Shown: positions 2 to 9,881 of the stretch, one piece after another
How positions within the stretch are numbered: the stretch's first letter is position 1
Layout of the letters: each line of letters starts with the position of its first letter
Assembly (NCBI GenBank): GCA_017443685.1
Contig: JAFSYD010000038.1
Coordinates: forward strand, 1 to 10,131
Direction of reading: 5' to 3'
Length of the DNA stretch: 10,131 nucleotides
Origin: Lachnospiraceae bacterium
GTDB taxonomy: Bacteria; Bacillota; Clostridia; Lachnospirales; Lachnospiraceae
The notes under the pieces: generated by a model
The model's database searches: none
Seen by the model: only the letters and a program-made list of their open reading frames with translations
What the model was told of the DNA's origin: nothing
Position numbers and translations under genes: made by a program

Positions 2-625
2 GAGAATGCGGCGAATGATGACGAGCAGAACACCTTCGCAAAGGTTACGCTGTCCGGCAAGGACTTCTCCAAGTCGGTAGAGCTGACCTATGCAATGGCT
101 ACCATGAGCATTGACGCTTTGGAGCAGTTCCTGATCTCCGAGATCAGCCGCAACCTCGGCGAGGCTATTGCGGACGATATGGTCTCCACGATCGAGAGCG
201 GCATCAATGGCGACAACAAGTTCAACGCAGCTACTTCCGGTACGCTTGTATTCGGCGACATCACGAAGGCTTTCGGCAAACTGAAGAGAACCGGCGCGGT
301 TAGGGTTTACCTTACCCGTTCCACGCTTTATAACTATGTTGTAGGCATGACGAACAGCGCAGGGCAGCTGATCTATCAGCCGAACGCTAACGCAGGTGCA
401 AACGGCACCCTTCTGGGCGCAGAGGTTAAGATCGAGGAGTCCGTCGCTGACGGCAAGCTCCTGATCGGTGATCCGAAGCGGGTAGTAAACAACGTCTTCA
501 CTGACATTCTTGTTGAGACCGACAAGGATATCAAGAAGCATAAGTACATCTACTCCGGCTATGAGCGCAGCGAATGTGCCCTGATGGATGACCGTTCCTT
601 CACGGAGATCACGGTAAATTTTTAA
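2..625 (+). CDS. Phage major capsid protein, HK97 fold (C-terminal part, 5' truncated)
   Basis: The frame is open from the first bases to a TAA at 623-625, giving 207 residues of a protein whose start lies upstream of the window. It builds the icosahedral shell. What is seen: a long helix rich in acidic and hydrophobic residues (EQFLISEISRNLGEAIADDM), which fits the spine helix of the HK97 P-domain, and later a GTLLGAEVKIEES...LLIGDPKRVV stretch typical of the A-domain in Firmicutes phage capsid proteins. The position directly before the connector and head-closure genes supports the call. The last sense codons, GTA AAT TTT before TAA, contain the slippery heptamer A AAT TTT, so a fraction of ribosomes probably continue in the -1 frame into the next reading frame. 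Identification rests on recognition of motifs and context. It is quite secure for the family, although the N-terminal delta domain and scaffold are not visible. Confidence 0.88.
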   Translation, partial: ENAANDDEQNTFAKVTLSGKDFSKSVELTYAMATMSIDALEQFLISEISRNLGEAIADDMVSTIESGINGDNKFNAATSGTLVFGDITKAFGKLKRTGAVRVYLTRSTLYNYVVGMTNSAGQLIYQPNANAGANGTLLGAEVKIEESVADGKLLIGDPKRVVNNVFTDILVETDKDIKKHKYIYSGYERSECALMDDRSFTEITVNF

Positions 626-672
626 GCGGCCCCACATTAGCGTCCCCTGCTGCTTCTAAGCAGTATTGGGGC
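616..672 (+). promoter_or_regulatory. Predicted -1 frameshift signal at the end of the capsid gene
   Basis: The heptamer A AAT TTT at 616-622 fits the X XXY YYZ rule in the capsid frame and is followed at once by the TAA stop. Six bases later, GCCCCA (629-634) can pair with TGGGGC (667-672). Inside that, CTGCT (650-654) pairs with AGCAG (659-663) around a TCTA loop. An alternative outer pairing uses CCCC 644-647 with GGGG 668-671. A GGAG at 604-607, eight bases before the heptamer, could act as the upstream Shine-Dalgarno-like stimulator known from bacterial dnaX. The pairings are read by eye; folding energy and frameshift efficiency are unknown. Confidence 0.68.
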
Positions 673-1023
673 AAGCGCACCGATGCGTTACAGACGGGTG
701 TAACGGTTAGTGATGGGGCGATTACGGGTACTTTGAAGTATGTCGAGAACTATGTCGAGAGCGGTCCGCTCGCAGGAAGCGGTAATTATCTCGCGCTTAA
801 GTTCACGTCTACCGACTGGGATGCTTACACATCTGTAAAGGTCGGGCTGGATCCGTCGGCTTCCGGTATGGAGCTTGTCGAGATTCTTACCGATCCCGAT
901 AAGGATGGCGTGTTCAAGATCTCCGATAAGGATACGCAGAATTTTGTTGTTGAGGTTTCCGACGGAACCACGACGAGCAGATTCTCGTATGACCTTAGCG
1001 GCCTGATCTGCGAGACGGAGTAG
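616..1023 (+). CDS. C-terminal extension of the capsid protein, reached by -1 frameshift (Ig-like/decoration-type domain)
   Basis: This is the -1 frame relative to the capsid gene. It is open through the capsid stop and ends at TAG 1021-1023. After slippage at 616-622 it adds 133 residues starting LSGPTLASPAASKQYWGKR. The first part is a Pro/Ala/Ser linker. The rest (WGK...LQTGVTV...GAITGTLKYV...NYLALKF...DPDKDGVFKISDKDTQNFVVEVSD...YDLSGL) looks all-beta and resembles short domains I know next to capsid genes in Firmicutes phages. No ATG or GTG lies in frame before residue 38. The first usable codon is TTG 733, which sits inside the GTLKYV segment and has no good ribosome binding site. The domain therefore probably exists only fused to a minority of capsid subunits, displayed on the head surface. 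The exact fold (Ig-like) is inferred. Confidence 0.72.
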   Translation, partial: KFLSGPTLASPAASKQYWGKRTDALQTGVTVSDGAITGTLKYVENYVESGPLAGSGNYLALKFTSTDWDAYTSVKVGLDPSASGMELVEILTDPDKDGVFKISDKDTQNFVVEVSDGTTTSRFSYDLSGLICETE

Positions 1024-3192: not shown

Positions 3193-3606
3193 ATGGTTAA
3201 AACAATGCAGATCGGGGACAGAGAGGTTACTTTTTCGACCGCTTTTGCGTGGGCGTTTATCTACAAGAGCCAATTCGGGGAGGATCCTGTTAAGACGCTT
3301 ATGCCGACGGTAAAGGGAGTTTTTTCTAATCCTGCTATTGAAAGTATCGAAGATGAAGAAGAAAAAGAACGGGAACAGGTCTTTGCGCTTATGGATGCGC
3401 TCGGGATCACGGGCATAGCACAAATCGCCTGGTCTATGGCGAAGCTGGCGGACAACACTATTCCGGCACCGCTGCCGTGGATCGAGTCCTTCGGCGATGA
3501 CTTCCCCGTTATGGATATGGTTGAGGAACTGATTACGGAAGCAATCGTTTCGTGTTTTGCAACAAAAAAATCCGGGGCTCCGATTCCGGCGGAGCCGACG
3601 AAGTAG
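3193..3606 (+). CDS. Tail assembly chaperone, short form (gpG-like)
   Basis: A 137-residue protein (MVKTMQIGDREVTFSTAFAWAFIYKSQFGEDPVKTL...) between the major tail and tape measure genes, where siphoviruses encode the lambda gpG-type chaperone. After a short beta start it is mostly helical: residues near 55-70 are very acidic (IEDEEEKEREQ), followed by ALMDALGITGIAQIAWSMAKLADN and a second helix (VMDMVEELITEAIVSCFATKK). The family binds the tape measure protein and recruits tube subunits; it is absent from the finished tail. The start is fixed by GGAGG at 3181-3185, seven bases before ATG. Near the end, codons ACA AAA AAA (3562-3570) form a run of seven A that permits a -1 shift into the next frame, making the long form. 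Assigned by position, helical content and the frameshift. Confidence 0.84.
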   Translation: MVKTMQIGDREVTFSTAFAWAFIYKSQFGEDPVKTLMPTVKGVFSNPAIESIEDEEEKEREQVFALMDALGITGIAQIAWSMAKLADNTIPAPLPWIESFGDDFPVMDMVEELITEAIVSCFATKKSGAPIPAEPTK

Positions 3607-3818
3607 ACGAAGACGATGAAATAAATATTGAGCGCATTCTTGCCGCCGGTCTCGACCGGGGACTGCACCGGCAGGATGCGGATACAATGACCATCGGGAT
3701 GTGGATCGATTTTGTTATTGAATGGAATAACGTACACACCCGGAAGGAAGAAAAGGATAAGAACGGGAAGCCGGTGAAGCGACGGAAGGCTACACAGGCA
3801 GACTTCAACAATTTTTAG
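3193..3818 (+). CDS. Tail assembly chaperone, long form by -1 frameshift (gpGT-like)
   Basis: The product of slippage at 3564-3570: 126 residues of the short form, then 82 residues from the -1 frame (from base 3570) to TAG 3816-3818, 208 in all. The T-like part begins IRGSDSGGADEVDEDDEINIERIL, an acidic linker, and continues AAGLDRGLHRQDADTMTIGMWIDFVIEWNNVHTRKEEKD...ADFNNF. The M-T-I-G-x-x-x-D-F-x-x-x-W-N segment is characteristic of the second chaperone frame in many Gram-positive siphoviruses. The T domain is thought to bring major tail subunits to the tape measure complex. A GTG at 3552 lies in the frame, but it has no ribosome binding site and would add residues inside the overlap, so separate translation is unlikely. 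Confidence 0.83.
3564..3596 (+). promoter_or_regulatory. Programmed -1 frameshift signal in tail chaperone genes
   Basis: The heptamer A AAA AAA (3564-3570) is in the correct phase for X XXY YYZ slippage from the short-form frame. Five bases later a perfect 7-bp hairpin begins: GGCTCCG (3576-3582) with CGGAGCC (3590-3596), loop ATTCCGG. Heptamer, spacing and stem together match the standard architecture, and the downstream frame has no other plausible start. CCGG copies at 3572-3575 and 3586-3589 are mutually complementary and might give an alternative fold. Confidence 0.86.
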
Positions 3819-8804: not shown

Positions 8805-9881
8805 ATGGCGAATTATTTACCGTTTAACAGCATATTGGACGGAGAAGGCACGCCTGACCGTCCCTGCAAGGCGGAGGACTGGGCTTGGTACTTCTCGACC
8901 TTCATCGGTAACGGTGTCTTTCCGAAGCCGACGGACGGCCTGCAGGTCGTTTCAGACTCGGACATGAATGTTCTGGTTAAGGACGGCTTCGGCTATATCA
9001 ACGGCTATGCATTTAAGAATCCTGCGGACTATCAGGTCACGATTACGACGGCTGACGGCTCCCTTCCCAGAATCGACCGCATCGTCCTCCGGTGGGATCT
9101 GGCTAACCGGCTGATGCAGATTGCACTTTTAACCGGTACTCCGTCGGCATCCCCGTCCGCTCCGCCTCTTGCAAGGACGGCTGACCGCTACGAACTGGCT
9201 CTTGCCGATATCGCAGTGGCTGCCGGTACCACTACCATTACGCAATCCATGATCACGGACAGGCGAAGCAACACAGACCTTTGCGGCATCGTCGAGGGTA
9301 CCGTATCACAGATTGACTGGGCGGCTCTTACTTCGCAGCTCAACGCCTTCATGGATGAGTATTCCGCCGCCATTGTATCGGACTATGCGGGCTACACCGC
9401 ACAAATCGAGGAGTTTGAGACACAGTACGAGAGCGATATACAGGACTGGACGGAAGACCAGCAGGCCGCTTTCCTTGCGTGGGTGGCTACGATTCAGGAT
9501 ATCCTCGATGAGACCGTGGCGGGTCAGTTGGAGTTAGAGATTGAACGGCTGCGGAATCAGGTAGGCATCCCGGACGCTTACGACTCGGATACCGTTTACG
9601 ATGAGGGCGACTACTGCATTGAGGATAATACGCTTCAGCGAGCGAAAAAGCAGACCCTCGGCGGCGGCTTTGACTCTACCTTCTGGGAGCCGACCACGGT
9701 GCTATCCGAGATCCAGAAGCGCATCGACATCGAACGCGAGAAGATTTACACGAAGATTGCGAACAATCAGCTTGCGATTGAGTCGCGTCTTGTAATCAAC
9801 GACAGCGGCGATCATCTGCTGCTGGATGACTTGGGTACCATTTTAGCGGTCAACCAGACCGTAAAATTTAATTTTGCATAG
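8805..9881 (+). CDS. Baseplate/fibre protein with conserved N-terminal anchor and carbohydrate-binding-like module
   Basis: A 358-residue protein. Residues 1-165 (FNSILDGEGTPDRPCKAEDWAWYFSTFIGNGVFPKP; LQVVSDSDMNVLVKDGFGYINGYAF; RIDRIVLRWDLANRLMQIAL; YELALADIAVAAGTTTITQSMITDRR) are an N-terminal domain common in Clostridia phage baseplate proteins, playing the anchoring role seen in BppU-type proteins. Residues ~172-254 are a long acidic, probably coiled, helix that may form a trimer stalk. Residues ~259-297 (YDSDTVYDEGDYCIEDNTL...FDSTFWEP) look like a chitin-binding type 5/12 module: aromatic start, VYxxGDY core, conserved tryptophan W294. A second helix and a short beta end (DHLLLDDLGTILAVNQTVKFNF) follow. 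GAGG at 8795-8798 precedes ATG by six bases. Role inferred: tail-tip scaffold contacting host wall glycans. Confidence 0.72.
   Translation: MANYLPFNSILDGEGTPDRPCKAEDWAWYFSTFIGNGVFPKPTDGLQVVSDSDMNVLVKDGFGYINGYAFKNPADYQVTITTADGSLPRIDRIVLRWDLANRLMQIALLTGTPSASPSAPPLARTADRYELALADIAVAAGTTTITQSMITDRRSNTDLCGIVEGTVSQIDWAALTSQLNAFMDEYSAAIVSDYAGYTAQIEEFETQYESDIQDWTEDQQAAFLAWVATIQDILDETVAGQLELEIERLRNQVGIPDAYDSDTVYDEGDYCIEDNTLQRAKKQTLGGGFDSTFWEPTTVLSEIQKRIDIEREKIYTKIANNQLAIESRLVINDSGDHLLLDDLGTILAVNQTVKFNFA

Follow-up and report, generated by a model that had tools for sequence, protein, structure and literature searches.

A phage capsid gene with a probable -1 frameshift extension, and a candidate slip-site cassette carried by many virion genes

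Lactobacillus phage A2, phage T3 and the Listeria phages A118, A500 and PSA have frameshifted Ig-like coat extensions, and the review describing them, cited here in part, explains frameshifted phage Ig-like domains as having landed out of frame by chance and then been kept by selection (PMC5009743). In T7-like phages a -1 shift in gene 10 produces a minor longer capsid protein, 10B, as proposed for the locus described below (PMC5009743; K1F, PMC13370021). The T7 extension, however, is not Ig-like according to the review (PMC5009743), and gene 10B of K1F has been used for low-copy display, including that of Ig-like adhesins (PMC13370021). SPP1 gp17.1*/gp17.1 shares with our locus, as predicted below, a frameshift near the stop codon that extends a major virion protein by an FN3/Ig-like fold and a long form that is the minority (3:1 in SPP1), but differs in that the shift is +1 at CCC UAA, concerns a tail protein and involves no heptamer; SPP1 is viable without the extension (PMC6316719, PMC8718954). 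A programmed frameshift also lengthens part of the major tail proteins of the 936 lactococcal phages (TpeX), for which a role in host interaction has been proposed, although the added domains are different ones and that description is confined to the tail (PMC6669499). Here we describe a capsid gene that, as its sequence and those of its relatives suggest, very probably yields both a short form and a -1 frameshifted long form, with a slip site that seems to belong to a cassette found on many virion genes.

The window we analysed is a whole MAG contig of 10,131 bases. PHROG matches reveal a tailed-phage head and tail block in it, comprising neck, adaptor, tail terminator, major tail protein, tape measure, Dit and further virion genes. 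An ORF behind the tail genes (8805-9881) matches a family that PHROG names head protein (phrog_1220, E 3.3e-80), a name that is odd for this position. The 3' part of an HK97-type major capsid gene, truncated at its 5' end by the contig edge, occupies positions 2-625 of the forward strand, on which the other features of this locus also lie (PF05065, E 6.8e-14, 52.4 bits against a curated cut-off of 24.2; phrog_10, E 2.5e-16). Its final codons are GTA AAT TTT TAA, and the slippery heptamer A AAT TTT (616-622), which is of the X XXY YYZ type in the zero frame, adjoins the stop TAA (623-625). The -1 frame is free of stops from 592 to 1020 and ends with the stop at 1021-1023; translation from 622 gives an extension of 133 residues (622-1023 including the stop), predicted to be an Ig/FN3-like beta-sandwich. 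The original prediction had placed the heptamer against the capsid stop, with the -1 frame continuing for 133 codons past it. Both the coordinates and the length agree, and the observation is confirmed. With a PF05065 capsid directly upstream, the -1 extension would be a C-terminal addition to a major virion protein. The short form ends in the residues ITVNF, and the junction peptide of the putative long form, ITVNFLSGPTLASPAASK, spans ITVNF and LSGPTLASPAASK.

We then surveyed relatives of the extension. A protein search found 339 homologues, of which 120 were listed in detail and 32 examined as sequences, with a few more seen aligned, and 80 of 145 relatives were kept for the locus collection. 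Genome searches recovered the domain in eight genomes besides that of the window, among 200, 392 and 391 searched, which are small samples of larger groups. Domain copies were sorted by frame and position, the heptamer not being a criterion. After removal of 15 duplicates from 136 rows, 121 copies were left (L062 being counted as "other" through the near-identical L058, and hits whose match starts beyond model position 12 being left out of one row set, in a number that was not recorded). Of these, 81 immediately follow another ORF and are in its -1 frame, whereas 26 are in-frame fusions and 14 have other arrangements. Among the loci collected first, L078 is the single copy whose neighbouring upstream ORF is related to it by the +1 frame only. 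An exact X XXY YYZ heptamer within the last five codons of the upstream ORF is present in 65 of the 81 -1-adjacent copies, but in none of the 26 in-frame and none of the 14 other copies, against a background of 52 in-frame occurrences at 24,326 interior codons of upstream ORFs. Sixty-two heptamers sit at one constant distance from the domain, with the stop 0, 1 or 3 codons later. The heptamer is found in 38 of 49 clusters at 70% identity, and loci fetched after the pattern had been noticed (held-out) have it in 12 of 20 cases, compared with 56 of 64 in the first set, which is still far above background. Among the 16 -1-adjacent copies without an exact heptamer, 10 keep TTT or CCC at the position of the last codon, and three (L113, L159 and the second copy in L089) have GGGGGAA in its place; to judge from their sequences, these three may use a separate start or slip on GGG. 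In L169, a human faecal phage record, the ORF before the domain copy ends in T TTA AAA TAA.

Taken together, the relatives strongly suggest programmed -1 frameshifting. The original prediction expected homologues either in the -1 frame behind a similar heptamer or fused in frame to capsid proteins. Both arrangements occur, the fusions being to capsid and major tail proteins, but the 16 copies without an exact heptamer fall outside this expectation. Loss of the heptamer in related phages, which would have argued against the idea, is not the rule; the majority given above keep it. The survey also bears on two trivial origins of the junction. It is extremely improbable that the arrangement stems from an error in sequencing or from the decay of an in-frame fusion; in-frame fusions of the domain do exist (26 of 121 copies), but the frame and heptamer are the same in seven other contigs or loci (L002, L005-L008, L092 and the family at large), and both capsid and extension are under purifying selection. 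Very improbable, too, is a long form produced by RNA polymerase slipping on AAATTTTT in place of the ribosome. Five consecutive Ts are present at the window's site, but the 65 family heptamers comprise 31 AAACCCT, 22 AAACCCC, one AAACCCA, nine AAATTTT, one AAATTTA and one CCCTTTC, so that 54 are AAACCC types without a comparable run; moreover, a hairpin (see below) and a fixed spacing suit ribosomal slippage.

The first ATG, GTG or TTG of the -1 frame is TTG 733-735, which gene callers pick as a start codon. A search for a Shine-Dalgarno (SD) core before this TTG found none, whereas, of the 11 further gene starts that were checked in the window, 10 are preceded by a core of at least 4 nt; the extension thus has neither the start codon nor the ribosome binding site that the original prediction had found missing. 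We compared codons 622-732 between six loci (the window, L002, L005, L007, L008 and L092; 15 pairs). In the -1 frame, dN/dS is 0.02-0.35 in the 12 pairs that have any dN, values that are rough because many dS exceed 1, and dN is 0 in the remaining three pairs. Of the 30 comparisons in the remaining two frames, 29 give a dN above dS. Judged by these substitutions, 622-732 evolves as protein in the -1 frame under purifying selection. The junction GTA AAT TTT TAA is unchanged in all six loci and several neighbouring codons differ; the preceding GAG ATC is also invariant. Because it lacks an SD core and follows a stretch under such selection, we judge TTG 733 to be a false start. Initiation there would also cost the domain its residues 1-37 and, with them, almost the whole of strands one to three in the model.

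These data make it very improbable that the domain is made as a small protein of its own, with translation beginning at TTG 733 or re-initiating at the capsid stop. Gene callers do annotate it in this way, an in-frame ATG lies near the junction in 9 of 87 copies, an ATG overlaps the stop in L113 and L159, and some relatives are apparently free proteins, of which L086 has an SD and ATG directly behind the capsid gene. However, the window has no start codon between the heptamer and TTG 733, the codons that this start would discard are under purifying selection, and a start codon combined with an SD core near the junction is found in only 2 of 87 copies. Own starts, the finding that the original prediction named as speaking against it, are thus not the rule; it is qualified by the 14 of 121 copies in other arrangements, some of them apparently free proteins with an N-terminal part of their own. 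Two such proteins, in L086 (1250-1792) and L025 (3827-4387), consist of their own N-terminal part and the domain, and the gene immediately before each of them encodes a PHROG 10 capsid. A short leader (such as MTNLEALKNLY...) precedes the domain of an apparently free protein in L086, L025, L158, L155, L160 and L167.

It had also been foreseen that annotation would call a short false gene at 733, and indeed five database proteins of 96 amino acids (P0006-P0010) correspond to it; the two whose sequences were checked, P0006 and P0010, start with MKYVENY, which is this TTG. The 96-residue entries are probably the tail of the fusion. Since they stand in its place, what is likely a surface feature of gut and rumen phages goes unnoticed.

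For the analysis of stimulatory structures, 41 non-redundant heptamer junctions were aligned on the heptamer without gaps. A stem that begins 6 nt past the heptamer is common to 38 of them. For two close variants of this stem, 63 and 69 cells of the alignment keep the pair despite changes on both sides, and the covariation scores of 0.47 and 0.48 are reached by none of 500 shuffles; sliding the partner by 1-3 columns lowers the score to 0.10-0.24. Two of five covariation measures are unremarkable: for double-change pairs, 98 and 135 of 500 shuffles are as high, and for further pair types the numbers are 13 and 160 of 500. The RNAalifold consensus contains five pairs, and every one of them shows double changes. 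Of the 81 -1 copies, 55 form at least 8 of the 10 hairpin pairs at the fixed register; in-frame copies do so in 3 of 26 cases, other copies in 1 of 14 and shuffles in about 1-2%. Folding energies alone are a weak signal (mean z -1.36; 16 of 64 below -2). The alignment thus indicates that the hairpin, which falls inside the domain's own coding sequence, covaries across the family.

The window's own subgroup (L002, L005-L008 and L092) lacks the family hairpin at the usual register, and the heptamer is invariant. The subgroup has a GC-rich 5' arm at the family position without a partner at the family position. A possible stimulatory structure spans 629-672 of the window, in which the 5' arm, GCCCCA (629-634), would pair with TGGGGC (667-672) and enclose an inner hairpin (648-665). 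The outer pairing is found only in the window and L002, and no later partner for the 5' arm was detected in L005-L008 or L092. In a competing fold of the window, 642-646 pairs with 668-672, and the window's fold does not stand out from shuffled sequences (z -1.30, 19 of 200 shuffles folding as well). Another possible stimulator is the SD-like GGAG at 604-607, which lies 8 nt 5' of the heptamer. GGAG, GAGG or AGGA precedes the heptamer at 16 of 65 junctions, the window included, versus 9.3% of 1660 control stretches. Because SD-like cores are enriched upstream of the heptamers, the window's subgroup may use another stimulator.

Residues 23-133 of the extension match positions 1-107 of the 107 in PHROG 31690 (E 3.9e-12), a family annotated as of unknown function. 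The AlphaFold2 model of the 133-residue domain has a mean pLDDT of 94.6 and consists mostly of strand. It is confidently modelled as a beta-sandwich, here tentatively described as Ig/FN3-like, in line with the well-formed beta-rich domain originally proposed. A Pfam search with the window's extension at E values up to 1 returned no family and hence no match to a Pfam Ig-like profile, and neither profile nor structure searches with the domain found a sugar-binding family or a strong structural match. Three further genomes, G526, G463 and G625, have long open frames (L112, L114 and L121, respectively; 857 to 2730 codons) that include relatives of the domain and look like bacterial surface proteins, the start of L112 being signal-peptide-like.

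To which genes is the domain attached? Upstream proteins were profiled for chosen representatives of the 81 -1-adjacent copies. These match the head PHROGs 10, 544, 422, 617, 2729 and 3270, the last of which bears the name head maturation protease, and the major tail family 2645. For hosts of in-frame fusions the matches are to PHROG 10 capsids and to the tail families 885, 117 and 88. The same heptamers are found behind representatives of families 10, 422, 544, 2645, 3270 and others. Within single genomes, AAACCCT occurs at the junctions of both a PHROG 3270 protein and the tail tube (G776) and at the tail tube junction (G407). Among the profiled representatives, no PHROG match was obtained for the upstream protein in L083, L053 and the second copy of L089. 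In L029, L053 and L083 the upstream partner, linked via AAACCC with the domain in the -1 frame, is a protein of roughly 100 amino acids with no PHROG match and no Pfam match above the cut-off. Because the profiled hosts belong to several families of head and tail-tube proteins, it seems that the slip site and hairpin move as a unit with the domain. On a tree of the domain, the 80 -1 copies, whose upstream proteins form 15 BLAST clusters, require 30 cluster changes (minimum 14; shuffle mean 54), and switching between -1 and in-frame attachment requires 16 (shuffle mean 19.4). These counts suggest that host gene and mode switched repeatedly, a reading to be taken with caution on a poorly resolved tree.

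One lineage seems to be wired backwards. In L062 (2552-2600), L064 and L058, which are pairwise more than 99.8% identical, the domain is in frame, yet the heptamer and a predicted hairpin persist, and a ribosome shifting to -1 would meet a stop one codon further on. The short form would thus be the frameshift product, as if selection keeps the possession of both lengths.

The capsid gene of the window would accordingly be read as follows. Ribosomes that reach its end would stand on AAT TTT, immediately before the stop; some of them would slip back by one base and read 133 more codons. Most capsid subunits would end in ITVNF, and a minority would bear the C-terminal Ig/FN3-like beta-sandwich. 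From the heptamer, the open frame, the fixed register, the hairpin covarying in the family and the purifying selection on the -1 frame, all of them seen in the sequences, we infer actual slipping and its efficiency, display outside the head and perhaps a weak role in adhesion. Across the family the proposed order is heptamer, short spacer, hairpin in the first codons of the domain and the domain itself, a cassette that would be attached to many head and tail-tube genes. We tentatively go a step further, to a possibility we rate as slightly short of even: that the domain forms a recoding cassette complete in itself, in which the initial codons specify both the start of the beta-sandwich and the slip-promoting hairpin, with the heptamer at a fixed distance ahead. 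If so, a copy arriving after a virion gene in its -1 frame would be displayed at low copy number, and the host gene would not have to be retuned.

The simplest function would be such low-copy surface display, and adhesion to cell walls or mucus is plausible by analogy with the extensions cited above and with the Ig-like adhesins shown on K1F. Frameshifting might instead be real and the extension serve capsid assembly or stability and not outside binding, an option with which the searches, yielding no sugar-binding family and no strong structural match, are compatible. We regard it as unlikely: the domain is found on several capsid families, on tail tubes and on apparently free proteins, and because it occurs on such varied proteins a portable surface module fits better than an assembly role.

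The frameshift of the tail assembly chaperone genes G and GT is exemplified by phage lambda. It shares the -1 shift with the capsid locus, but its product is an assembly factor and not a virion decoration (PMC6316719, in the part cited). The window likely contains a second -1 frameshift that, by its position, concerns such a chaperone pair (3193-3818): A AAA AAA (3564-3570) in ORF 3193-3606 leads into ORF 3552-3818, and a GC-rich hairpin of 7 bp (3576-3596) lies 5 nt past it. The PHROGs matched by the pair, 709 and 3033, are given no function.

In the open-access literature searched, including passages of PMC5009743, PMC10885494, PMC13370021, PMC8008677, PMC6669499, PMC6316719 and PMC8718954, we found no mention of this domain family or of a portable frameshift cassette; on this ground a domain with built-in slip site and hairpin looks new. 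The capsid finding alone is a further case of the established frameshifted Ig-like virion extensions. As in A2, T3, A118, A500 and PSA, one gene would provide two coat lengths, the longer with a C-terminal Ig-like extension, by a shift that is -1 in most of those phages (PMC5009743, in part). Unlike in those systems, as far as the cited part of the review describes them, the window's domain is without a Pfam match, and slip site and hairpin keep a fixed place across hosts. The signal is fixed in place relative to the domain and recurs beside several virion families, and its heptamer was found in none of the 26 in-frame fusions; it therefore becomes testable whether ribosomal frameshifting spreads as a module.
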